This document shows, piece by piece, positions 572-13,887 of a stretch of DNA of 46,462 bases (position 1 is the first letter of the stretch; each line of letters opens with the position of its first letter). Below the pieces are notes generated by a model. The model saw only the letters and a program-made list of their open reading frames with translations, searched no databases and had not been told where the DNA came from. The stretch is from Candidatus Omnitrophota bacterium (GTDB taxonomy: Bacteria; Omnitrophota; Gorgyraeia; Gygaellales; Profunditerraquicolaceae), in NCBI GenBank assembly GCA_026387475.1, contig JAPLLN010000038.1, positions 1-46,462 on the forward strand, given 5' to 3'. The position numbers and the translations under genes are program-made.

Positions 572-1489
572 TTAGTAATACGAGATGAGCATCTTTTCCA
601 GATTGCCGCCTAAGATTCCTTCTTTAACCTCTTCCGAAAGCTCGAGATTCTGCACTGCCTGTATTGAACTTACTACATCTTTTTTCGCCGGCCAGTCGCT
701 ACCCCATAAAATATGCTTAGGACCTAACAACTCAAGTGCTGCAAGAAAATTAGTTTTAGACTTATCACCGCTAGTATCCACATAAATATTTTTTAAATAA
801 TCCGTAGGGCTGCTTTTCAAATCTTTGACGAAATTCATCCCACGCAGCATCTGGTATGTGGCGTCAAAGCGATGCGTCAAAAACGGGATGACCCCGCCAA
901 AATAAGCAAAGACGAATTTAGTTTTAGAATAATCGCGCAGGATATCCGCCATTAAGAGCTTGCCGATACAAATAGTCGTATCGAAGACGTACTCGATTAC
1001 CGGAGTCAACAAGGGATCCTGCACCCGCTCAAAACCTATTGGGTTTACTATCTGGGAGTGCACGAAAATAGGGATATTTCTACGCTCTGCCTCTCTATAT
1101 ATAGGTAAGAAAGCCGCATCATCCAAGTATTTGCCGCTATAACTGGAGGCGAGGGAAATCGCCTTAAAGCCCAACTCATCAAGCGCCCTTTTCAGCTCAT
1201 TCAGCATATTTTCAGGCTCATCGACCGGCAAAACCGCGGCCCCGATAAATCTTTTAGGATAGCGCTTAATGATCTTAGAGACGTTGTCGTTATAAATCCG
1301 GGCGACTTCTTTAAGGCTCCCTAATTTCAGATGCGCATCTGAGGTAGGATACGTTAAAACCGCCTTGCTGATCCCCGCTTCATCCATAATCCTGGCCTGG
1401 GCTTCGATATCCCCCCAACCCTTATGGAAAAAGTGGGCGTTGCTTATGATCTCATCCGGGAGCCAGTGGCTGTGGCTGTCGATTATCAT
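572..1489 (-). CDS. Amidohydrolase family protein (metal-dependent TIM barrel, ACMSD-like)
   Basis: N-terminal IDSHSH metal motif, internal IFVHSQ, C-terminal ILWGSDWP typical of the amidohydrolase_2 family. Confidence 0.85.
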   Translation of the reverse strand: MIIDSHSHWLPDEIISNAHFFHKGWGDIEAQARIMDEAGISKAVLTYPTSDAHLKLGSLKEVARIYNDNVSKIIKRYPKRFIGAAVLPVDEPENMLNELKRALDELGFKAISLASSYSGKYLDDAAFLPIYREAERRNIPIFVHSQIVNPIGFERVQDPLLTPVIEYVFDTTICIGKLLMADILRDYSKTKFVFAYFGGVIPFLTHRFDATYQMLRGMNFVKDLKSSPTDYLKNIYVDTSGDKSKTNFLAALELLGPKHILWGSDWPAKKDVVSSIQAVQNLELSEEVKEGILGGNLEKMLISYY

Positions 1490-1881
1490 TTATGCTCCGC
1501 GCTCTTTAAAATTCGCTCGGTCATCTCTCTTTCATAGAGCGCTTTTATTTTCTCCAGCGCCTTATTGCCCAATTCCTTCTGTATCACCTTTTCAATAGCC
1601 TGCAACTTCATGGCCAGAAAGGTATATTCCGGCCTTATTTGTTTGCCGTCGTATTTTAAGGCAAACCCGTCCAGCTCTTTTTCCAGCATATAGGCCTCAA
1701 AACCGGCGAGCAGTTTCTCTGTTCCCTTAGCCTTATTCTGCTTTTTAAGTTCTTTCAAAATAACTTTATCCACCTCTACCTGGGTGAACTTGCGCTCTAT
1801 CTTATCCAAGGCCTCCTTGGTGGTTTTATAGAACCAGACCAAATAACGCCTTTTAAGATTTTTAATATCCTGATTGTGCAT
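1486..1881 (-). CDS. Hypothetical charged alpha-helical protein in the polyketide operon
   Basis: 131 aa ORF, overlaps the downstream gene by 4 nt and lies 1 nt from the upstream gene; no family recognised. Confidence 0.65.
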   Translation of the reverse strand: MHNQDIKNLKRRYLVWFYKTTKEALDKIERKFTQVEVDKVILKELKKQNKAKGTEKLLAGFEAYMLEKELDGFALKYDGKQIRPEYTFLAMKLQAIEKVIQKELGNKALEKIKALYEREMTERILKSAEHK

Positions 1882-1882
1882 T

Positions 1883-2653
1883 TTATTTCCCCGGATGCTG
1901 CTGCTTAAACGGTATGACGGGCGCTACCCACGGCGTCTGCTGGTTGATAATAGCTATTTCCAGCGGGCAGACATTAGCCGGAACAGTAAGCGCAAACTTT
2001 AGCGCATTTTCAATCGCTTCAGTAGACATTAAACGTGAAGTATCCTCGGTGACATTCTTCAGTTTTCCCGTAAGGTCAGTATCGGTGACGCCGGGGAGCA
2101 GCGAAGTAACCTTGATGCCGTAATCGCGTATCTCCCAGAAAAGCCCCTTAAGAAAAGCGCGCAACCCTACTTTTAACGAGCTATAAACTATAAAGGTGCG
2201 CGGGAGCGGATCGCAAAGCGTAGAGCCGGAAACCATATTGATGATGGCGCCGGACTTCTGCTTGATCATATCATTGATCACCAGGCGGATCAGGCGCACA
2301 TATCCCAGATAATTTGTATGCGCTAATTTCTCGAAATCCTCTATCGGCTGCTTCTCGAAAGGATACTGGCTTGAGATCCCGGCATTATTGATCAGGATAT
2401 CGATACGGCCGTATTTTTCCTTGGTCTTATTGACTAGATTCTCAAGGTCTTCTAACTTGGTCACGTCGCACTCTACCGGGAGGACTTCGACTTTATATTT
2501 CTTGGCGATTTCATCCGCGGTTTCTTTTAAAGGCTCGATCTGGCGCGCGGCAATAGCCAGGTTTATCCCTAAGCTTGCTGCGGTAGAAGCCAGGGCTTTA
2601 CCTATTCCGCGGCTTGCTCCGGTGACAATGGCAACCCTTCCTTTTAAATCCAT
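1883..2653 (-). CDS. SDR-family oxidoreductase, likely polyketide ketoreductase
   Basis: GASRGIGKA Rossmann motif, NNAG, YSSLK catalytic Y-x3-K. Confidence 0.9.
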   Translation of the reverse strand: MDLKGRVAIVTGASRGIGKALASTAASLGINLAIAARQIEPLKETADEIAKKYKVEVLPVECDVTKLEDLENLVNKTKEKYGRIDILINNAGISSQYPFEKQPIEDFEKLAHTNYLGYVRLIRLVINDMIKQKSGAIINMVSGSTLCDPLPRTFIVYSSLKVGLRAFLKGLFWEIRDYGIKVTSLLPGVTDTDLTGKLKNVTEDTSRLMSTEAIENALKFALTVPANVCPLEIAIINQQTPWVAPVIPFKQQHPGK

Positions 2654-2668
2654 GGCATTATTCCTTTC

Positions 2669-3112
2669 TTATTTATTCGCTGCTTTCTCGATAGAATCTT
2701 TAAATATCTTTAAATTATCCTTGGAGTGCTTATTGATAAAACCCTCAACCTGTTCGTCATTAAACTTTGCTTTTTCGTCCATCTCAAAATGCTGGATCCA
2801 AACCAACTCCACCCCTTCCGGCTTAGGAGTATATAACCAGACGATTTTCATGTACTTAAAGGGAAATTTCGGCTCCTGTCTTTCAGCATAAGCGAAATAT
2901 TTGTCTTTAAAGAGCAGGCGCCAGGAGACCCAGGACTTGCCTTCATCATCTGTAAGGCGAAAGGTGATTTTATTATCTTTTTTCTCCACTACTTCCGCCT
3001 TCTGATATTCTCCGCCGAATAATTCCGTCCAGCGCGGGATATCATTAGAAATATCGAATACCTTATCGTAAGGCGCGTTAATAATAATCGAGTTGCAAGT
3101 ATGCCCGGCCAT
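2669..3112 (-). CDS. SRPBCC-family aromatase/cyclase, TcmN ARO/CYC-like
   Basis: IIINAPYDKVFDISNDIPRWTELFGGEYQKAEV...KSWVSWRLL...FPFKYMKIVWLYTP...WIQHFEM...NLKIFKDSIE resembles polyketide aromatase/cyclases. Confidence 0.8.
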   Translation of the reverse strand: MAGHTCNSIIINAPYDKVFDISNDIPRWTELFGGEYQKAEVVEKKDNKITFRLTDDEGKSWVSWRLLFKDKYFAYAERQEPKFPFKYMKIVWLYTPKPEGVELVWIQHFEMDEKAKFNDEQVEGFINKHSKDNLKIFKDSIEKAANK

Positions 3113-3114
3113 AA

Positions 3115-3441
3115 TTATTTCTCCTTTCCCATCAGACTCAATAAAATCGCTAAATTCGAATCCTTATCTGCGCTCAATGAATGGGGCGCCCCTGCCGGCA
3201 TAAAGATAAATACGCCCGGGCTCATCCGGATCTTCTTACCCCCTAAAACAAAAATCCCTTTGCCTTTTAAGACCGTTACTGCCGCTTCGCGGGTCGAAGT
3301 ATGCTCGGAAATATCGGTCCCCTTGGCCAGGCACATCAAGGTATAATTTGAGGTCTCGGTCTTAACCAATACCTTGCTGAAAATCCCTTCCTTGGGAAAC
3401 TCCATTAATCTTTTCAAATCTTTAAGTTCGGATTTAATCAT
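3115..3441 (-). CDS. Cupin-domain protein
   Basis: Small beta-barrel ORF with cupin pattern (AKGTDISEHTSTREAAVTVLKGKGIFVLGGKKIRMSPGVFIFMPAGAPHSL). Confidence 0.8.
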   Translation of the reverse strand: MIKSELKDLKRLMEFPKEGIFSKVLVKTETSNYTLMCLAKGTDISEHTSTREAAVTVLKGKGIFVLGGKKIRMSPGVFIFMPAGAPHSLSADKDSNLAILLSLMGKEK

Positions 3442-3443
3442 TA

Positions 3444-4241
3444 TTATAAGATTGCGACTACGCGCGACCAGGCAGCTCCGGTGCGTTTGATCTTGACCGG
3501 AAAACAGATGACCTTAAAACCAAAATCCGGCAAATTCTCCAAGTTCGCGAGGCGCTCAATGTGAATAAACTCACGCTTCCTGCCGTAAAAATGAGCCGGG
3601 TATAAATATTTGATGTCTTTTTTCTCTAAGAATTCCTTAAGCATAAAACGGTACGGCCGGTCTATCCCCATCGTATCCGTGCCGAATATCTTTACACCCC
3701 GATTCAAAAGGTAATCTATGGCCAGTGGGTCTATACCGGGATAATCCGTAAAATATTTAGGGGAGCCGTGCAATTTATCCGCGCCGGTCTGGATCAAGAC
3801 TATATCGTTAGGCTTAAGGGCGTACTTGATCTTTTTTAGAGCCTCTTCTATATCCTGCGGCCCGATAGTTTCCGCAGGTTTCTTGTGGGTCATATCCAGT
3901 TTTACGCCGTCGTTATAACACCAATCCAGCGGGATCTCTTCCGCGGTCTTGGAAGGCCGGTTTTCTGACTTTGAGCCGTAATGAAAAGAGTAATCCAGGT
4001 GCGTTCCCACATGGACCGGGGCATGCACTATCTCCAAAGAAAGGAATTCTTCGTCCGGAAGGTCTTCCTTTTTAAGGATGCGCGCCCCTAACGCGTATTT
4101 TATTTTGCCGAGCAAAGTTTTACCCATGATCACGCGGTTGAATTTCTCCACCCCGGCTTTATGGGAGATGCGCTCGATATCGACCTTATGCACCTCAAAA
4201 GCCTTCTCGTCGATGGGAAGGCTTATATCGATTATCTTCAT
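3444..4241 (-). CDS. Putative cyclase / kynurenine-formamidase-like metal-dependent hydrolase (PF04199-type)
   Basis: DISLPI N-terminus and HVGTHLD metal motif, GTDTMGID. Confidence 0.85.
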   Translation of the reverse strand: MKIIDISLPIDEKAFEVHKVDIERISHKAGVEKFNRVIMGKTLLGKIKYALGARILKKEDLPDEEFLSLEIVHAPVHVGTHLDYSFHYGSKSENRPSKTAEEIPLDWCYNDGVKLDMTHKKPAETIGPQDIEEALKKIKYALKPNDIVLIQTGADKLHGSPKYFTDYPGIDPLAIDYLLNRGVKIFGTDTMGIDRPYRFMLKEFLEKKDIKYLYPAHFYGRKREFIHIERLANLENLPDFGFKVICFPVKIKRTGAAWSRVVAIL

Positions 4242-4468
4242 TGGCCTATTTTAGACTGAACTACTTTAGCGATATCGCTGATAGTGGAAAACTTAGTGAT
4301 ATCCTTAGGGTTTAACTTAATATTAAACTCCTTGCTTAAGGCAATCACAGTCTCCACCATCTCCGTCGAATCCACGCCTATGGAATCCTGCAAAGACACG
4401 TCGTCTTTAAGCTCTTCCGGCTTGACTCTTAATAATTTTACTAAAACCTCTTTGATCTTATTTTTCAT
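4238..4468 (-). CDS. Acyl carrier protein
   Basis: 76 aa with phosphopantetheine site GVDSTEMVE; typical ACP length and helical pattern. Confidence 0.9.
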   Translation of the reverse strand: MKNKIKEVLVKLLRVKPEELKDDVSLQDSIGVDSTEMVETVIALSKEFNIKLNPKDITKFSTISDIAKVVQSKIGQ

Positions 4469-5928
4469 ATTTGCACCTCACCCTTAGTCGCAGCTGCCTC
4501 CCATTTGTTGATACCATCCATGACATCCTTAAAGCAAAGTTTAGCCAACGGATCGAAATCGCTCTCCATGATCCGGTTTATGCGCCCGGGCTTAGAGAAG
4601 AATTCGCGCATGCACCATGAACCCAGGCGGCCTAAGTCTTCAGTGCTCAAATGATCCGTAGGGATAACCGGATGCAGAAAATCCCAGGTGCTGAAATCCA
4701 CTTTTTTAGGATCGACCCACCCTTTCTTTAAAGCGATCCTCCACATCGGCGAATTCGGCGCGGGAGTTACATAACCGACCCAAAGAATATCCGGATCGAC
4801 CTCGTCGGTAAACTCAAAACGCTGCTTGATGATCTCCTCAGTGTCATAATCAAAACCCATCATGATATCCGCGACAATTGCGATATCGTTTTTTCGCAGG
4901 ATCTCGATGGTCTTTTTGATCTGATCCAGAGTGATGCCTTTGGCGATCTTCTTAAGTTCCGATTGCGTAGTGACCTCGATCCCGAAGACGCCCATAAAAA
5001 GACCGTTCTCTTTCATAAGCGGTAAAATCGATTCGCAGTTGACCCAGTCGATGGCGCGGCCTAAAGAAACCCACTTGATCGGATTATTAGACGCCTTTTT
5101 GAGCTCGCAGAATTTCTGCACCCTCTTGGGGTCGACATTAAAATTATCATCCTGAATAACTACGACCTTTACCCCGTATTTTCTATGCAGGAGATTCAAC
5201 TCCTCCATAACCCTTTCCGGAGATTTTGCGCGCCATTTCAAGAAATCCGAAGGCGAGCGCGGGTCAAACTGGTCCCACTCATAACAAAAAGTACAGGCCG
5301 AAGGGCAGCCGCGGGAAGTAACCATATCCACGAACGGCTTCCAGTAAGTATGGCCCACGTATTTATCCATAGGAAACAGATCATACGCCGGAAGCGGGAG
5401 TTTATCTAAATCCATCATCAGCGGCTTATGCGGCCCCATGATGATCTCGCCGTTGACGCGCGAAGTCACGCCACCTACATCTTTAAGAGGCTTATTCTTA
5501 TCTATTGCCTCGATCAGGTCGCCGAAAGACTCTTCTTCTCCCATGACCACAAAATCCACGGCCGGGTTTTCTTCCAAAGTATGCACAGGCATCGCGGAAT
5601 ACCATAAACCCCCGAAGATGATCTTGGTCTTGGGCAGGGCAACCTTGATTTTAACCGCCGCGTCCTTAAAATGCCTTAGAACTCCGTAACCACCGTATCC
5701 GTGCAACTGTTCGCCCATGACCACAACGTCCGGATTGATAGCCTTGACCTTTTCAACTAGAGCGTCCATCGGGATCTGGTCGGCTTTTCCGTCGATAACC
5801 GCGACATCAGCATAGCCCCTGGTTTCTCTGACGTAAGCCGCCCAATGGGCATAGAGCTGATTAGGCGACCTGTGAATTCCATGGGTAGCCCATGCGCCGA
5901 CTTTCGGCATAACAAATAAAATCTTCAT
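4465..5928 (-). CDS. B12-binding-domain radical SAM protein
   Basis: N-terminal cobalamin-binding-like fold (KILFVMPK...VVVMGEQ...KIIFGG...VDFVVMGEEE) and CxxxCxxC in SRGCPSACTFCYEWDQ. Confidence 0.9.
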   Translation of the reverse strand: MKILFVMPKVGAWATHGIHRSPNQLYAHWAAYVRETRGYADVAVIDGKADQIPMDALVEKVKAINPDVVVMGEQLHGYGGYGVLRHFKDAAVKIKVALPKTKIIFGGLWYSAMPVHTLEENPAVDFVVMGEEESFGDLIEAIDKNKPLKDVGGVTSRVNGEIIMGPHKPLMMDLDKLPLPAYDLFPMDKYVGHTYWKPFVDMVTSRGCPSACTFCYEWDQFDPRSPSDFLKWRAKSPERVMEELNLLHRKYGVKVVVIQDDNFNVDPKRVQKFCELKKASNNPIKWVSLGRAIDWVNCESILPLMKENGLFMGVFGIEVTTQSELKKIAKGITLDQIKKTIEILRKNDIAIVADIMMGFDYDTEEIIKQRFEFTDEVDPDILWVGYVTPAPNSPMWRIALKKGWVDPKKVDFSTWDFLHPVIPTDHLSTEDLGRLGSWCMREFFSKPGRINRIMESDFDPLAKLCFKDVMDGINKWEAAATKGEVQI

Positions 5929-5940
5929 CGTTCTTCTCCT

Positions 5941-7173
5941 TTAGGGTTTCTCTACGACCAGAGCGGAATTTATTCCGCCGCGGCCGCGCGAGATGATCAA
6001 TGCCTTCTCTATTCTTTTTTCTTTGGCTTCCTTACCTATATTATAATTCAAAGACTTATCCGCCGGCTCATCCAGATTGACGGTCGGAGGAATAAGGCTG
6101 TGCTCCATGGCTAAGACCGTTGTGATCATATCCACGGCGCCTGACGCGCCCAGAAGATTTCCGAACATGGACTTGGGGCAGCTGACCGGGATATCCTTAG
6201 CCCTTGCGCCGAAAACACTTTTTATGGCGGCGATCTCCGAGTTATCCCAGATATCCACGGCTAAACCGTCTAAACTTATGTAATCTATTTTATCCGCGCT
6301 CACACCAGCGTCATTCAACGCCATATTAATGGCGCGCGCTAATTCTTTACCGTCGGAAGCAGGCTTGATCCTGTCTACCGCGTCGCAGCTGGTCCCGTAA
6401 CCCGAGATCAAAGCCTGGATGACCGCTTTGCGCGACTTTGCCCGCTCAACGTTCTCCATGACCACGATCCCCGAGCCTTCTCCGATGACAAATCCGTCGC
6501 GTTTCTTATCAAAGGGACGGTATGCTTCAGACGGATGCGCGTTATTTTTTGAAAGCGCGCCGTAAGTATTACAGCACAACAATGCGTAAGGAGTAACCGG
6601 GGCTTCCATGCCGCCGGCAAGGATCATATTTAATTTACTTTTGGATAAAACCTTGCGCGCATACCCTAAGGCCATAAGAGAGCTCGCCCGGTCAGCCACT
6701 ACAGTCTTACTAAAACCTTTAATGCCGTAATAGATGGAGACCTGGCCCTGGGGCGCTGCCGGAAACCACGCCGAGGCCATATAAGGAGAGACCCCTTCGC
6801 GTCCCTCGATGTAAAGGTCGCGTAATTCCGTCTCGGCATAAAGCCATCCGCCGATGGCATTACCTAGAAATATCCCCACGAGATTAGGGTCTTCGTTCTT
6901 TATATCGATGCCCGCGTCCTGAAGCGCCATTTCAGATGCGATCAGGGCCATATGCGAGAAGGCGTCGATCTTTTTTAAGAGCCTCTCCGAGACGTGGGTG
7001 TATTTTTCCAGGTCGTCGATCTGTCCGGCGATATGCGACGGATACTTTGAGGCGTCAAAACGCGTGATCTCTTTGACAAACGACCTTCCGGATTTAATAT
7101 TTGCCCAGAACTGGCGCTTGCCTATTCCGGAGGGAGCGACTATGCCTGTACCCGTGATCGCGATTTTTTCCAT
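5941..7173 (-). CDS. Ketosynthase-like chain length factor (KS-beta), catalytically degenerate
   Basis: Thiolase-fold KS homolog; the active-site Cys region reads VVADRASSLMAL, the HGTST His region reads SLDGLAVD, the second His region reads SMFGNLLGA. Confidence 0.85.
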   Translation of the reverse strand: MEKIAITGTGIVAPSGIGKRQFWANIKSGRSFVKEITRFDASKYPSHIAGQIDDLEKYTHVSERLLKKIDAFSHMALIASEMALQDAGIDIKNEDPNLVGIFLGNAIGGWLYAETELRDLYIEGREGVSPYMASAWFPAAPQGQVSIYYGIKGFSKTVVADRASSLMALGYARKVLSKSKLNMILAGGMEAPVTPYALLCCNTYGALSKNNAHPSEAYRPFDKKRDGFVIGEGSGIVVMENVERAKSRKAVIQALISGYGTSCDAVDRIKPASDGKELARAINMALNDAGVSADKIDYISLDGLAVDIWDNSEIAAIKSVFGARAKDIPVSCPKSMFGNLLGASGAVDMITTVLAMEHSLIPPTVNLDEPADKSLNYNIGKEAKEKRIEKALIISRGRGGINSALVVEKP

Positions 7174-8435
7174 TAGCCACCAAACCTTTTCAAAATTAAA
7201 GCGGAGTGAATCCCCGAAAACCCACTTGAGGTTTTAAGAATAATATTTACTTTTTTTGCGATCGCCTGATTGGGTATGTAGTAGAGATCACACTGCGGAT
7301 CCTTCTCCTCCTGATTTATCGTAGGAGGAAGGATATTCTTCTCAAAGATCATGGCGCAGATGGTAAACTCTACGGCGTTTGCCGCTGCCAACGGATGCCC
7401 GATCATAGATTTAAGCGAGCTGATGGGCAACTTATAAGCATAGTCTCCGAAGATCGCCTTGTAGGCATTGGTCTCAAAGATATCATTCATGCGTGTAGAC
7501 GATCCATGGGCATTGATGTAATCTATTTCCGCGGGTTTAATATTCGCATCTTTTAAACCCAAAGTTATGCAATTCTTCATCGCGTCCCCGTCGCCGGGGA
7601 GATCAGTCATATGAAAGGCGTTGCAGCTGGTCCCGAAACCCATGACCTCGCAATAAATGTGGGCATTGCGCTTGAGGGCGTGATTCAACTCCTCCAAAAC
7701 CAGAAGCCCGGCGCCCTCGGAGAGGACAAAACCGTCGCGTTTGTTATCAAATGGCCGGGACGCCTTTTCCGGCTCATCGTTACGCACTGACAAAACATTT
7801 ACTACGTCGAAAGCGCCGAAGGTGATCGGCGTAATGGGCGCTTCTGCCGCGCCACAGATCATAATATCCTGCTCACCGTCCTGTATGGTCTCCAGCCCAA
7901 AACCCATAGAGTCGGTTCCGGCGGTACATCCCGTAGAAAGGGTATTGCAGATACCTTTAAATCCGTATTTAGAACTAAGTTCGATGGAAGGCGTATTGAA
8001 CATCGCCGCATCATACAAATCAGGCCTGACCAAAGAGGGATCGATCGGCTTTTTGCCGTCGTCGGTGACCAGGGCGAATTCCTCTTCCATATATTTTGTC
8101 CCGCAGATAGCATTTGCGAGGCAGACTCCGATACGCTCCGGGTCTTCTTTAGCGAAATCGATGCCGCTGTCCTTTATCGCCATATTCCCCGCCACGACTC
8201 CGAACTGCACGTATCTATCCATGCGCATCGCTTCTGCGTGCGTAAGTCCTAACTTAAAAGGATCGAAATCGCGCACCTCTGCGGCGATCTTGGTATTAAA
8301 GACCGAAACGTCGAATCCGTCGACCCGCTTGATCCCGGATACGCCTCCGGACATCCCCTTCCAGGCATTATCTTTGCCGATTCCGTTCGGGGAAACCACC
8401 CCTATACCCGTAATAACAACTCTGCGCTTAGGCAT
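7173..8435 (-). CDS. Beta-ketoacyl synthase, KS-alpha, catalytically intact
   Basis: Active-site STGCTAGTDSMG, NAHGSSTRMND, SLKSMIGHPLAAANAVEF. Confidence 0.92.
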   Translation of the reverse strand: MPKRRVVITGIGVVSPNGIGKDNAWKGMSGGVSGIKRVDGFDVSVFNTKIAAEVRDFDPFKLGLTHAEAMRMDRYVQFGVVAGNMAIKDSGIDFAKEDPERIGVCLANAICGTKYMEEEFALVTDDGKKPIDPSLVRPDLYDAAMFNTPSIELSSKYGFKGICNTLSTGCTAGTDSMGFGLETIQDGEQDIMICGAAEAPITPITFGAFDVVNVLSVRNDEPEKASRPFDNKRDGFVLSEGAGLLVLEELNHALKRNAHIYCEVMGFGTSCNAFHMTDLPGDGDAMKNCITLGLKDANIKPAEIDYINAHGSSTRMNDIFETNAYKAIFGDYAYKLPISSLKSMIGHPLAAANAVEFTICAMIFEKNILPPTINQEEKDPQCDLYYIPNQAIAKKVNIILKTSSGFSGIHSALILKRFGG

Positions 8436-8438
8436 GAA

Positions 8439-9044
8439 TTATCTTTTCTCCTCTTCCTTTGCTCTGCTTACCTTAAATACAATGTGCCCCCCGTCCGGAC
8501 AAGTCACCGTATCCAGGGTATCAGGGTTCTTCATAAAGAAAAACTTGGCGCCGAAATTTAAAGCAAATAAAGCCGGAAAGGCGCAGTGAAAAGCCGCGCC
8601 GCAAAAACCCGGAATGCATTTCAAGCCCGTTGTCTCCCATTTATCGCCGACTTTATAGCCAAAAACACATTTGCCGTCAGACTTAAATACTTCAATGACC
8701 ATATTTTTCGGTTTAGGCCCCTTCCAATTCAAGTCCTTAGCCGCGAATTCCGGCTTACCCTCTTTATCGAGGATCTCGGCCTTAAATTCAAGCTTGCCTC
8801 CGTCGGGACAGGTAACTAATAAGGAACGCTGGTTATCCCGGAAAGGGAATTTTGCTCCGAAACTAAGCGCGTAAATTACCGGGAATAACGCATGCGCCAA
8901 GCCTAAGCAGAAAAACTTCGGCGGATGAGTAAAATCTTCCAAAATAAGTTCATCCCCGATCTTATAACCATGATAACAATGCCCCTCCACCTTATTTACC
9001 GTAAGCTTTAATTTAGGAAAAGGGGAATCGATCTTTTCGCTCAT
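8439..9044 (-). CDS. TIGR04076-like protein with two tandem domains
   Basis: Internal duplication: LKLTVNKVEGHCYHGYKIGDELIL...CPDGGKLEFK and MVIEVFKSDGKCVFGYKVGDKWE...CPDGGHIVFK. Confidence 0.65.
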   Translation of the reverse strand: MSEKIDSPFPKLKLTVNKVEGHCYHGYKIGDELILEDFTHPPKFFCLGLAHALFPVIYALSFGAKFPFRDNQRSLLVTCPDGGKLEFKAEILDKEGKPEFAAKDLNWKGPKPKNMVIEVFKSDGKCVFGYKVGDKWETTGLKCIPGFCGAAFHCAFPALFALNFGAKFFFMKNPDTLDTVTCPDGGHIVFKVSRAKEEEKR

Positions 9045-9045
9045 C

Positions 9046-10053
9046 TTAGTCGTATAGTCCTTTAGTAAAATTCAAAAGTTCATCTTTGGTAAAAAACTGT
9101 CCGGTCTCTTCAACCGCGTGCACCAATTCCACTAATTTAGTATTCAAGGGGGCCTTCTGCCCGGTTTTCCTAGCCAGGGCGACAAATGCGCCGTTAATAA
9201 AATCGACCTCCGAGCGCTTGCCTCTTTTGATGCTCTGCAGGATAGATCCGTACAGCGGGTCTTTGCTTAATTTAAGCATTATGCCGGAGAATATCCCCGC
9301 TGCCTGCGCCGGGGGGATACAGATCATTTTAGTGATATTTTCCAACGGGAAACCCGGAAGGGAGACTAAATTTATCCCCGACTTGCAGATAATATCAAAA
9401 CCTTCCTTCCAGATACCGATGCTGATACGGCTTACATCCAGGTCGCCGAACGCCTCCTGCATGCTCAAGCCCAATATCGCGGGGATACAGTTGTTGGCGT
9501 TGACAAAAACTTTCATATATTTCATCCCCATGATGTCATCGCTGATCGTCGTCGGGAAGGCCTTATCCAGGACAAGGCTTACATCGATCAATTTCTGGTC
9601 CGTTCCTTTTTCAAAAGGCCTGCCGATGATCCAGCCGCCTTCGAAATTATGCACGATCAGGCCCGGCTCAATATAGGTCGAACCAAACATCACGATACTT
9701 GAGATTATTCTGTCTTTAGGGATGTATTTTGCCGTTATTTCGTCGGCAGCCACACCATTCTGCGTAGTCAGGACTATCGAGTCTTTTAAAAAAGCGGCGT
9801 TATCTTTCAGCGCGCACTCGATATCCTGGGTCTTGACCGCGAGTATTGCCAGGTCCGGCTTAGAGACCACCTGGCTGTGCGCCGTAACCGACACCTTATG
9901 CTCCCGGCGCGCTCCGGAGACCTTGATACCGGATGAATTTATGGCATCGACCGCATCTTTCCGGCCGACCAGGTAGACATCTTCACCTTTTTCTTTTAAG
10001 TAAGCCGCGACTAAGCCCCCGATCGCTCCGGAGCCGATGACTACTATCTTCAT
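9046..10053 (-). CDS. Ketopantoate reductase (ApbA/PanE)-like oxidoreductase
   Basis: GSGAIGGLVAAYL Rossmann motif, AVKTQD, TTQNGV, C-terminal KRGKRSEVDFINGAF. Confidence 0.9.
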   Translation of the reverse strand: MKIVVIGSGAIGGLVAAYLKEKGEDVYLVGRKDAVDAINSSGIKVSGARREHKVSVTAHSQVVSKPDLAILAVKTQDIECALKDNAAFLKDSIVLTTQNGVAADEITAKYIPKDRIISSIVMFGSTYIEPGLIVHNFEGGWIIGRPFEKGTDQKLIDVSLVLDKAFPTTISDDIMGMKYMKVFVNANNCIPAILGLSMQEAFGDLDVSRISIGIWKEGFDIICKSGINLVSLPGFPLENITKMICIPPAQAAGIFSGIMLKLSKDPLYGSILQSIKRGKRSEVDFINGAFVALARKTGQKAPLNTKLVELVHAVEETGQFFTKDELLNFTKGLYD

Positions 10054-10316
10054 TTGCAGTTTTTGGGGAAACCGTATTTTTTGTAATCGAACCCAGCCTG
10101 CTCCAACAGCCGGACCATCATGCTGTAAAACGGGGAGGGGACATCGGAGAAGAAAGCGCCGACCACATCCTGCTCTTCAACCGCTTCTGCGCTCCGGGAT
10201 CTGGCAAGTTCTTCGGCCTTTTTGGTCACCGCTACTTCGGTTATCCGGCGGTGAAAAACCGGGATCTTGACTATCATCAGCTTTAATTTTTCTTGAGTCT
10301 TGGCATCCCAATTCAT
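10050..10316 (-). CDS. Small protein resembling the light-independent protochlorophyllide reductase C-terminal (PCP_red) domain
   Basis: MNWDAKTQEKLKLMIVKIPVFHRRITEVAVTKKAEELARSR... pattern; first gene of the operon. Confidence 0.6.
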   Translation of the reverse strand: MNWDAKTQEKLKLMIVKIPVFHRRITEVAVTKKAEELARSRSAEAVEEQDVVGAFFSDVPSPFYSMMVRLLEQAGFDYKKYGFPKNCK

Positions 10317-10362: not shown

Positions 10363-10380
10363 ATAGTAAAATTTTACTAT
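10363..10380. promoter_or_regulatory. Perfect 18-bp palindrome, candidate operator
   Basis: ATAGTAAAATTTTACTAT equals its own reverse complement; lies just downstream of the minus-strand -10 box. Confidence 0.7.
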
Positions 10381-10393
10381 TCCAATTTTATTA

Positions 10394-10421
10394 ATTATAC
10401 CTCCTAGAACGGGCTTGTCAA
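10394..10421 (-). promoter_or_regulatory. Consensus sigma-70-type promoter for the polyketide operon
   Basis: Minus strand TTGACA (10421..10416) - 16 nt - TATAAT (10399..10394). Confidence 0.8.
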
Positions 10422-10438: not shown

Positions 10439-10951
10439 TTACAGGGCTTTGATGAGACGGGAGAGAAACTGGTATTCTGCCTCCAGCATCTGGAGGTTGT
10501 GTTCAAGGATGAGGGTATGCGGAGAAGACTTCTTTTTCAGGGAAACTATCATCTGGTTAAGCTCGCGGGAGAGGCCTTTGAGGATGACCATCCTGCCGCG
10601 CATGCGGCGCTGCGCTATTTCAGGGTCGATCTTATCTAAAAAATATAAACTTAGGTCCAGGCTGAATTGAGGCCGCTTAAAATTCAAAAAGCTCTTGCTT
10701 AAGAGTTCGTCAAAGCGGAGTTTTCCTTTTGGGGTGAGGCAGTAGACGTGGCGTTCGGGCCTGCGCGTCGGTTTCAAAGCGCGCTTTGCGACCAGCCCCC
10801 TCTTCTCCAGTATGTTCAGGGGATAATATATGGATTTCAGGTCTACTCCGGCGAAGATAGAGAGGATCTTTTTGATCTCTTGTTTTATTTCGTAGCCGTG
10901 TTTAGGGCTCTGGCGCAAAAGCCCTAATAATAAAAGCTCCTGCTCGATCAC
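10439..10951 (-). CDS. PadR-family transcriptional regulator
   Basis: ELLLLGLLRQSPKHGYEIKQEIKKIL...YPLNILEKRGLV... winged-helix PadR pattern. Confidence 0.85.
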   Translation of the reverse strand: MIEQELLLLGLLRQSPKHGYEIKQEIKKILSIFAGVDLKSIYYPLNILEKRGLVAKRALKPTRRPERHVYCLTPKGKLRFDELLSKSFLNFKRPQFSLDLSLYFLDKIDPEIAQRRMRGRMVILKGLSRELNQMIVSLKKKSSPHTLILEHNLQMLEAEYQFLSRLIKAL

Positions 10952-11898
10952 TCTGCCACCACCCCCATCTTGCGGAATTTTTTATAGCGCTCTTTTAATA
11001 GATCCTGCGGGCTTAGTTGTTTCAACTCGCTTAAATTTCTTAACAGGGTTTCTTTTATATTAGCGGCGGTCTTGGCGGGATCGCGGTGCGCTCCACCCAG
11101 AGGCTCGTGGACGACCTCATCGATGATCCCCATCTTTAACAGGCCTTCGGCGGTAAGCTTTAATACCTCGGCTGCTTCCGGCGCTTTCGCTCCGTTCTTC
11201 CAGAGTATCGCAGCACACCCCTCGGGAGAAATAACCGAATAATAAGCATTCTCTAAAACGCAGACCCTGTCGGCTATCCCTACTCCCAGCGCCCCTCCGG
11301 AACCGCCTTCGCCGATGACTACCGCGACGATCGGCACGCCAATACGGGTCATCTCCCTTAGGTTAAGGGCGATCGCCTGGGACTGCCCCCTCTCTTCGGC
11401 TCCGATCCCCGGATACGCTCCGGGGGTATCGATAAAGACCACTATCGGCAGGTTACTCTCCTGGGCCAACTGCATCACCCTTAAAGCCTTACGGTACCCT
11501 TCAGGGTGGGCGCAGCCAAAGTTCCTCTTCAGGTTCTCCTTGGTATCCCTGCCTTTTTGGTGGCCGATCACTGCGATCTTCTGATTATCCAGTTTAGCCA
11601 GGCCGCAGATCATCGCTTTATCGTCGGAGAAGAGCCGGTCACCGTGCAATTCAATAAAATCGGTCATGAGCATCCCGATATAATCTAATGTATACGGCCT
11701 AAGCGGATGGCGCGCCAGCTGGACCTTTTGCCAGGCGCTAAGGCTGCTGTAAGTATCTTTCTTTAAATGTTCAAGCTTCTCCTCCAGCCTTTTGACTTCG
11801 GAAGAAAGATCGATCTTCTTATCGGAGATAAAATTCTTCAATTCCGAGATCTTCTTTTCTAATTCAACGATAGGTTTTTCAAAATCTAGTCCGGCCAT
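10948..11898 (-). CDS. accA: Acetyl-CoA carboxylase carboxyltransferase subunit alpha
   Basis: Full-length AccA pattern (WQKVQLARHPLRPYTLDYI...FGCAHPEGYRKALR...FIDTPGAYPGIGAEERGQ...GEGGSGGALG). Confidence 0.96.
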   Translation of the reverse strand: MAGLDFEKPIVELEKKISELKNFISDKKIDLSSEVKRLEEKLEHLKKDTYSSLSAWQKVQLARHPLRPYTLDYIGMLMTDFIELHGDRLFSDDKAMICGLAKLDNQKIAVIGHQKGRDTKENLKRNFGCAHPEGYRKALRVMQLAQESNLPIVVFIDTPGAYPGIGAEERGQSQAIALNLREMTRIGVPIVAVVIGEGGSGGALGVGIADRVCVLENAYYSVISPEGCAAILWKNGAKAPEAAEVLKLTAEGLLKMGIIDEVVHEPLGGAHRDPAKTAANIKETLLRNLSELKQLSPQDLLKERYKKFRKMGVVAE

Positions 11899-12733: not shown

Positions 12734-13180
12734 CTAATAAGCTACTACGGCGATGATTATTCCCAGTATTAAACCGACGATTACTTCGATAGGGGTGTGT
12801 CCCACAAGCTCGCGCAGGCGCATCTCCTGGATCTTACCCTGCCAATAAATGTCTTCCATTACCTTATTTAATATGCGCGCTTGTTTCCCGGCGGAGCGGC
12901 GCACTCCCTGGGCGTCAAACATTACTACGATGGCAAAAGCCGCGGCGAGGGCAAAGTAGGCGCTGGAGAAACCCTGTTCAATGCCGACGGCAGTAGCCAG
13001 GCACGAGGCGCCGGCTGCGTGCGATGAGGGCATCCCTCCGGAACCGATAAACCAGCGGAAATCGAACCTCTTATGCTGGATGACCCCGATGACCAGCTTG
13101 ATGGTCTGGGTAATGAACCACGCGGATATCGTGGTCATCAATATTTTGTTGCGGGCTATCGCTACGAATACTTCCTTCAT
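12734..13180 (-). CDS. Divergent PAP2-family (DUF212) membrane protein
   Basis: GSGGMPSSHAAGASCLATAVG...DAQGVRRSAGKQARILN. Confidence 0.9.
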   Translation of the reverse strand: MKEVFVAIARNKILMTTISAWFITQTIKLVIGVIQHKRFDFRWFIGSGGMPSSHAAGASCLATAVGIEQGFSSAYFALAAAFAIVVMFDAQGVRRSAGKQARILNKVMEDIYWQGKIQEMRLRELVGHTPIEVIVGLILGIIIAVVAY

Positions 13181-13788
13181 TATTCCTTTGCGGCTGGGGC
13201 AGGGGTTACTTCGATTTTTACTTTAGCGGGGGTCGTGGCAAGTCCGTCTTTTATTACAAAACCCTGATTCCCTTCCAGGGTCTTTTCGCTCTGCGATTTC
13301 TGTATCATATCCACGCCGACCTTGCGCGCCTGCTTTCTTAATTCCCTTATCGCTTTCTTGAGCTCGGCTGCGGAAGACAGCTTTATCTTAAGGGTCTCAT
13401 TCTCCTGCTCTAATTTAGTCTTCTGTTCGGCAAGCGCCGCGTTTTCTGCTTTTAAAAGCGATGCCTGCGAGCTGATCTGGTCAAGGGTCTTCTGGATAAC
13501 GGCAAAATCCATAAAAAGCTTGGAGAGGCGTTTTCTGCCGGCCTTTAAATTCTCTTTAAGCTCATTCTTATCATGGGCCAGCTTGACCCCGAGCGCTTTT
13601 TCTTTCTCCAATTCCTGGGTAAGCCTCTGCTTTTCGCTCTCCAAAAGGACGATCTGCTCTTTTTTCTGGGACAACTCGCTTAAAAGCGCGTATTTCTCCT
13701 TAAGGGCGATCACATACCTGTAAACGCTGAATACGGTGATGCTTATCAGGATGACGATGACGATATTCTTTATCTTGGGCTTATTCAT
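13180..13788 (-). CDS. Membrane-anchored coiled-coil protein
   Basis: N-terminal TM then long heptad-rich E/K/L segment. Confidence 0.7.
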   Translation of the reverse strand: MNKPKIKNIVIVILISITVFSVYRYVIALKEKYALLSELSQKKEQIVLLESEKQRLTQELEKEKALGVKLAHDKNELKENLKAGRKRLSKLFMDFAVIQKTLDQISSQASLLKAENAALAEQKTKLEQENETLKIKLSSAAELKKAIRELRKQARKVGVDMIQKSQSEKTLEGNQGFVIKDGLATTPAKVKIEVTPAPAAKE

Positions 13789-13887
13789 AGTTAAATATTA
13801 TATAGCCTGGCGGTCAAATTGCAAGTTTTTTTATGGTTAGATTTAGCCCGGTCTTTCGTCTATTGTTAATGAAGGGAGGATTTTTAC

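Follow-up and report, generated by a model that had tools for sequence, protein, structure and literature searches.

The locus and its genes

The window (the whole 46,462-nucleotide stretch of Omnitrophota DNA that was analysed) carries on its minus strand the gene order accA, padR, promoter and operator, 88-aa gene, ApbA, TIGR04076, KS, KS(CLF), B12 radical SAM, cyclase, cupin, SRPBCC, SDR, unknown, amidohydrolase. The features are as follows.

10948-11898, minus: accA, acetyl-CoA carboxylase carboxyltransferase subunit alpha (TIGR00513); the accA-padR pair is kept across the class
10439-10951, minus: padR, 170-aa PadR-family regulator (PF03551, E=6.7e-14); its GTG start overlaps the end of accA
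10416-10421, minus: -35 hexamer TTGACA; the promoter ahead of the core is also kept in relatives
10394-10399, minus: -10 hexamer TATAAT, after a 16-nt spacer
10378-10393, minus: a further dyad, TAATAAAATTGGAATA, degenerate, directly behind the -10 box and offset from the primary core by 14 bp in the upstream direction
10363-10380, no strand assigned: candidate primary operator ATAGTAAAATTTTACTAT, an 18-bp palindrome at about +8 to +25 from a start assumed at 10387
10050-10316, minus: first operon gene, 88-aa protein (DUF2621, PF11084, E=8.7e-5, below the cut-off)
9046-10053, minus: ApbA/PanE-type reductase, by family match
8439-9044, minus: two-domain TIGR04076 family protein, by family match
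7173-8435, minus: ketosynthase (KS-alpha), with active-site Cys and both His present
5941-7173, minus: chain-length-factor-like KS-beta, with the KS-alpha Cys and both His replaced (R, D, N) in the alignment
4465-5928, minus: B12-binding radical SAM protein (BchE/HpnJ-like), by family match
572-4241, minus: the six remaining operon genes, namely
3444-4241, minus: putative cyclase (PF04199)
3115-3441, minus: cupin
2669-3112, minus: SRPBCC polyketide cyclase
1883-2653, minus: SDR
1486-1881, minus: protein without a family name
572-1489, minus: amidohydrolase

The gene content bears out the initial annotation of a polyketide operon, with a KS/CLF pair of type II-like character. KS-beta lacks all three catalytic residues, as chain length factors do, and a KS paired with a CLF that has lost the active-site Cys is the arrangement of a type II polyketide synthase. 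Among the operon open reading frames of 80 aa or longer no ACP gene was recognised; position 1 is also the end of the contig. KS-CLF pairs have already been reported from Candidatus Omnitrophica (PMC10132072). The 88-aa gene is the first or an early operon gene in relatives, and is strongly conserved in KS-containing operons.

The sigma-70 promoter TTGACA-N16-TATAAT (minus strand, 10421-10394) agrees with the consensus at 12 of 12 positions, and is hence perfect where it had been called near-perfect. It is the single exact consensus promoter in the window, with 0.05 expected at spacings of 15-19, and from its position transcription is predicted to start at about 10387. Another good promoter match, TTGCAA-N16-TATAAT (13797-13824, minus), lies just upstream of a gene at 13180-13788. 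The palindrome ATAGTAAAATTTTACTAT (minus strand, 10380-10363) was correctly described and placed: it is composed of 9+9 bp, 100% complementary with zero spacer, and lies between the end of padR (10439) and the first operon ATG (10316), both on the minus strand. It does follow the -10 box, at a distance of 13 nt rather than the approximately 14 that had been given, and its arms are extended by GGAATA/TATTCC, which had been overlooked. The conserved 16-bp core, TAGTAAAATTTTACTA, occupies 10364-10379 (about +9 to +24). Even allowing three mismatches, the 18-mer has one copy in the window, where 0.05 would be expected by chance, and one in the 1.26-Mb genome; further operator sites, as of a wider regulon, were thus not found in that genome with up to three mismatches.

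Conservation of the palindrome and its association with PadR

Conservation of the palindrome in related genomes had been proposed as a check on its function. In an unbiased set of 32 operon-start regions, retrieved via the PadR protein alone and not via the motif, the core was exact in 28, with one mismatch in one region and two mismatches in three. As controls, the reversed pattern never came below 4 mismatches, and accA upstream regions never below 5. The separate site profile took exact-core sites only, making its core invariant by construction, and the 32-region set provides the unbiased figure. A promoter matching 11-12 of 12 positions, with a spacer of 16-18, precedes 56 of 65 exact core sites; a full 12/12 promoter precedes 35 of the 65, versus 5 of about 4,000 background positions. 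AT-rich palindromes are generally common, and an origin by chance in AT-rich intergenic DNA might be considered, but this is ruled out by the conservation and the uniqueness of the element, and its probability is negligible.

Nearly always there is one core site per genome. A second exact core in one genome (L122, G051:C37, 3509-3524) has no recognisable promoter or following gene. Secondary sites with one mismatch (L139, L140, L143, L156, L157) look like chance occurrences, lacking the promoter arrangement or standing before unrelated genes. Many PadR-positive genomes without the exact core have a version with one or two mismatches in the same place (L172, L190, L193-L195, L197). PadR orthologues were found in 67 of 98 relatives, mostly just downstream of accA where the contig allows, and in a locus of the same genus (G001) PadR is 95% identical. 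In several families the core lies approximately 60-180 bp downstream of the padR stop, and this closeness holds for each type of following gene: the 88-aa gene, a CoA ligase or a methyltransferase. Most members of the window's own family have a MarR gene and several kb between padR and the core. Family f49 has padR elsewhere in the genome, with no linkage to the core, so that PadR would have to act in trans in that family.

When 84,980 species were scanned for TTGACA-N22-45-core, 110 stretches matched, and among the 80 of these that were listed nearly all are from Omnitrophota. Two listed stretches, one labelled Planctomycetales, are apparently the same as G006:C40 and G076:C233, both loci in the window's class; a match in Christensenella looks like chance. 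In some twenty bacterial families that carry PadR, the core precedes the matching operon, with roughly one copy in each genome.

The palindrome might instead act in RNA, as a 5'-UTR hairpin that serves in attenuation or affects message stability; a stem that includes the palindrome sequence can indeed form in the leader. However, folding is barely better than that of shuffled sequences (z=-1.1), and the centre AAAATTTT, which would be the loop, is conserved as well as the arms. Moreover, in three loci (L059, L126, L130) the core or its one-mismatch form lies 1 nt past the -10 box and would be partly untranscribed. An RNA element is therefore extremely improbable.

Among 334 genomes of the class, 84 have both core and PadR, 2 the core only, 34 PadR only and 214 neither (p=4e-48). 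The genomes are related and this p-value overstates their independence; the same tally by family (19/0/2/33, p=1e-12) is the fairer one. The two genomes having the core without a PadR match are 84% (G351) and 87% (G375) complete, and in another sample three such genomes (G002, G006, G041) are 75-80% complete. KS was found in 98 genomes, 97 of which also have PadR. Where KS is missing, 11 of the 21 genomes with PadR carry the core, versus 1 of the 215 without PadR, which indicates that the core follows PadR and not only the polyketide genes. The sequences themselves, their conservation, co-occurrence and synteny, and the placement of PadR in a DNA-binding family are direct observations.

In the KS-less loci that were read, the first gene of the operon behind the core encodes an AMP-binding CoA ligase, and an MMPL exporter gene often comes next. 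Seven of these operons (L036, L041, L123, L131, L145, L162, L164), all behind the same operator, comprise a CoA ligase, an MMPL/RND exporter and a small secreted protein that by eye resembles LolA; such content suggests export of a lipid-like product. The same seven have the core without a detected copy of the 88-aa gene, and autoregulation by the 88-aa protein was rejected on that ground. In other families (L089, L161, L165-L169, L171-L176 and others) the operon starts with a CoA ligase and a PNP_UDP_1 phosphorylase, in many cases with an IF-2B/MtnA-like gene and in L146 also with a class II aldolase; these operons look like salvage of 5'-deoxyadenosine or methylthioadenosine from radical SAM enzymes.

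The alternative to be weighed against this distribution is a genuine operator that is recognised by some other regulator, of MarR type or encoded elsewhere, with PadR only co-travelling. PadR, core and KS are co-inherited, and their co-occurrence would also be compatible with another co-inherited regulator. A MarR gene follows padR in many relatives, and the inverted repeat upstream of it has a similar half-site, TAGTTAA. However, MarR occurs independently of the core (46/40/131/117 for both, core only, MarR only and neither; p=1), no MarR match was found in the window's own genome, and the MarR repeats differ from the core (TTAATAGTTAA...TTAACTATTAA); MarR as the binder is ruled out on distribution. 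More generally, loci that lack both KS and the 88-aa gene still have the core together with PadR, and no other regulator conserved beside the core was noticed among those locus open reading frames that were scanned for HTH domains. A regulator other than PadR is accordingly judged unlikely. The MarR-family gene that often follows padR (L036, L041, L052, L071, L079 and others) has its own inverted repeat, for example TTAATAGTTAAGTATCTTAACTATTAA, together with a strong promoter; this is probably an autoregulated switch in its own right, serving the genes that lie between padR and the operon.

PadR, the second dyad and the proposed switch

PadR scores 52.1 bits against the N-terminal winged-helix family PF03551 (cut-off 27). 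Its AF2 model (pLDDT 83.6) has a C-terminal helical domain with helices at 100-107, 110-138 and 144-169; this predicted separate domain would place the protein, at 170 aa, in PadR subfamily 1 (about 200 aa). The best structural matches, over the whole length, are M. tuberculosis Rv0047c (8jxk) and the B. subtilis PadR-operator DNA complex (5x11). Residues Y20 and Y42 are invariant in 91 PadR orthologues, and their equivalents are DNA-contact tyrosines of B. subtilis PadR (PMC6457526). Conservation is higher in the DNA-binding domain (mean entropy 1.33 bits) than in the C-terminal domain (1.89 bits).

The second dyad TAATAAAATTGGAATA, missed in the initial annotation, has 4 mismatches to the core and extends from about -6 to +10, overlapping the start region. 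In 36 of 64 sites a dyad no more than 4 mismatches away from the core lies at exactly the 14-bp offset, against 0.4 expected from shuffled flanks. Conservation drops around the core except upstream, where this dyad sits. In three sites the order is reversed and the second dyad is downstream of the core. In two loci (L059, 5076-5091; L126, 670-685) the exact core is 1 nt past the -10 box with a weaker dyad 14 bp downstream, and the rank of the two dyads seems to be swapped. In L050 the core has decayed, and a promoter is followed by two remaining degenerate dyads, again 14 bp apart. With a second dyad 14 bp from the first, two PadR dimers may bind; at this distance (about 1.3 helical turns) they could lie side by side on different faces of the DNA.

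Taken together, conservation, co-occurrence, synteny and binding-site geometry strongly support the earlier proposal that PadR acts on the polyketide operon with this palindrome as its operator, and very probably the palindrome is the on/off switch through which PadR controls that operon. We consider it highly probable that a PadR dimer on the palindrome, with a second on the weaker dyad, blocks the full-consensus promoter and is released by a ligand; from the sequence we infer that PadR binds here, represses by binding, uses the second dyad and is induced by ligand. PadR would be made at basal level together with accA, and one dimer would occupy the perfect palindrome (about +8 to +25) while a second, bound more weakly, would occupy the degenerate dyad 14 bp upstream (about -6 to +10). 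Initiation or promoter escape at the sigma-70 promoter would thereby be blocked until a small ligand freed it; an acyl-CoA, an intermediate of the pathway or an aromatic product are possible ligands. PadR would have one dedicated target per genome, its own gene pair being without this operator. Since accA upstream regions lack the operator, padR is probably not autoregulated through it. The linkage to accA makes malonyl-CoA or acyl-CoA as plausible a ligand as an aromatic product, and the earlier suggestion that PadR senses the product of the operon is speculation.

From the position of the sites, repression by PadR of this one operon is very likely. PadR might bind but act as an activator or dual regulator. 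A full-consensus promoter should need no activator, though, and the operator pair covers about -6 to +25, over and downstream of the start, whereas activator sites normally lie upstream of the -35 box. Precedent for activation is provided by AphA of Vibrio, a PadR-like activator (PMC5992853), and by PrhP of Ralstonia, likewise a PadR-like activator. With both considered, an activating or dual role for PadR is very improbable. Repression by PadR could also be extended to a phylum-specific composite switch, in which two PadR dimers act on overlapping dyads 14 bp apart, preserved near letter for letter across the class, and the accA-padR linkage couples malonyl-CoA supply (or product) to an envelope-relevant polyketide; this fuller reading is doubtful.

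Relation to known PadR systems

Omnitrophota is an uncultured phylum, and the locus offers a candidate pair of transcription factor and operator, resolved to the single base and amenable to tests in vitro or in E. coli with no need to grow the host. The candidate operator is also a sequence tag: in many metagenome-assembled genomes it marks where a widespread and unexplored polyketide operon starts. It further opens a route to the inducer, which would itself be a hint at the product of the operon.

Operators of the PadR family (LmrR, PadR, LadR) have the consensus ATGT-N8-ACAT (PMC4517056, PMC3506622). The candidate operator described here, TAGT-N8-ACTA, shares its GT-N8-AC spacing but has TAGT in place of the exact half-site ATGT (outer TA, not AT), and is thus proposed to be of PadR type by inference rather than by canonical motif. 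Alike in these systems are the winged-helix PadR protein with its contact tyrosines and a GT-N8-AC inverted repeat located at a neighbouring operon's core promoter. Different here are the conserved A4T4 centre, the second dyad at 14 bp, the single target per genome, and the position of padR behind accA without this operator in front. Compared with B. subtilis PadR (5x11) and Rv0047c (8jxk), the protein has the same N-terminal wHTH and C-terminal helical domain, at 21-29% identity and with a whole-chain TM-score of only 0.4-0.6, the C-terminal (ligand) domain having diverged.

With respect to polyketides, SrcmRII and CmmRII are PadR-like repressors of type II (chromomycin) clusters in Streptomyces, and their disruption switched the cluster on (PMC5992853). 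That system likewise links a PadR-family gene to a KS/CLF polyketide cluster, but it is actinobacterial and a SARP activator is also present. We know of no operator common to SrcmRII/CmmRII and the Omnitrophota PadR. The PadR-operator pair, its class-wide conservation and the tandem dyad were not found in the open-access literature searched. In summary, KS-CLF pairs in Omnitrophica and PadR-like repressors of type II clusters were already known, and to these the locus adds a new and unusually well conserved putative PadR-operator pair.
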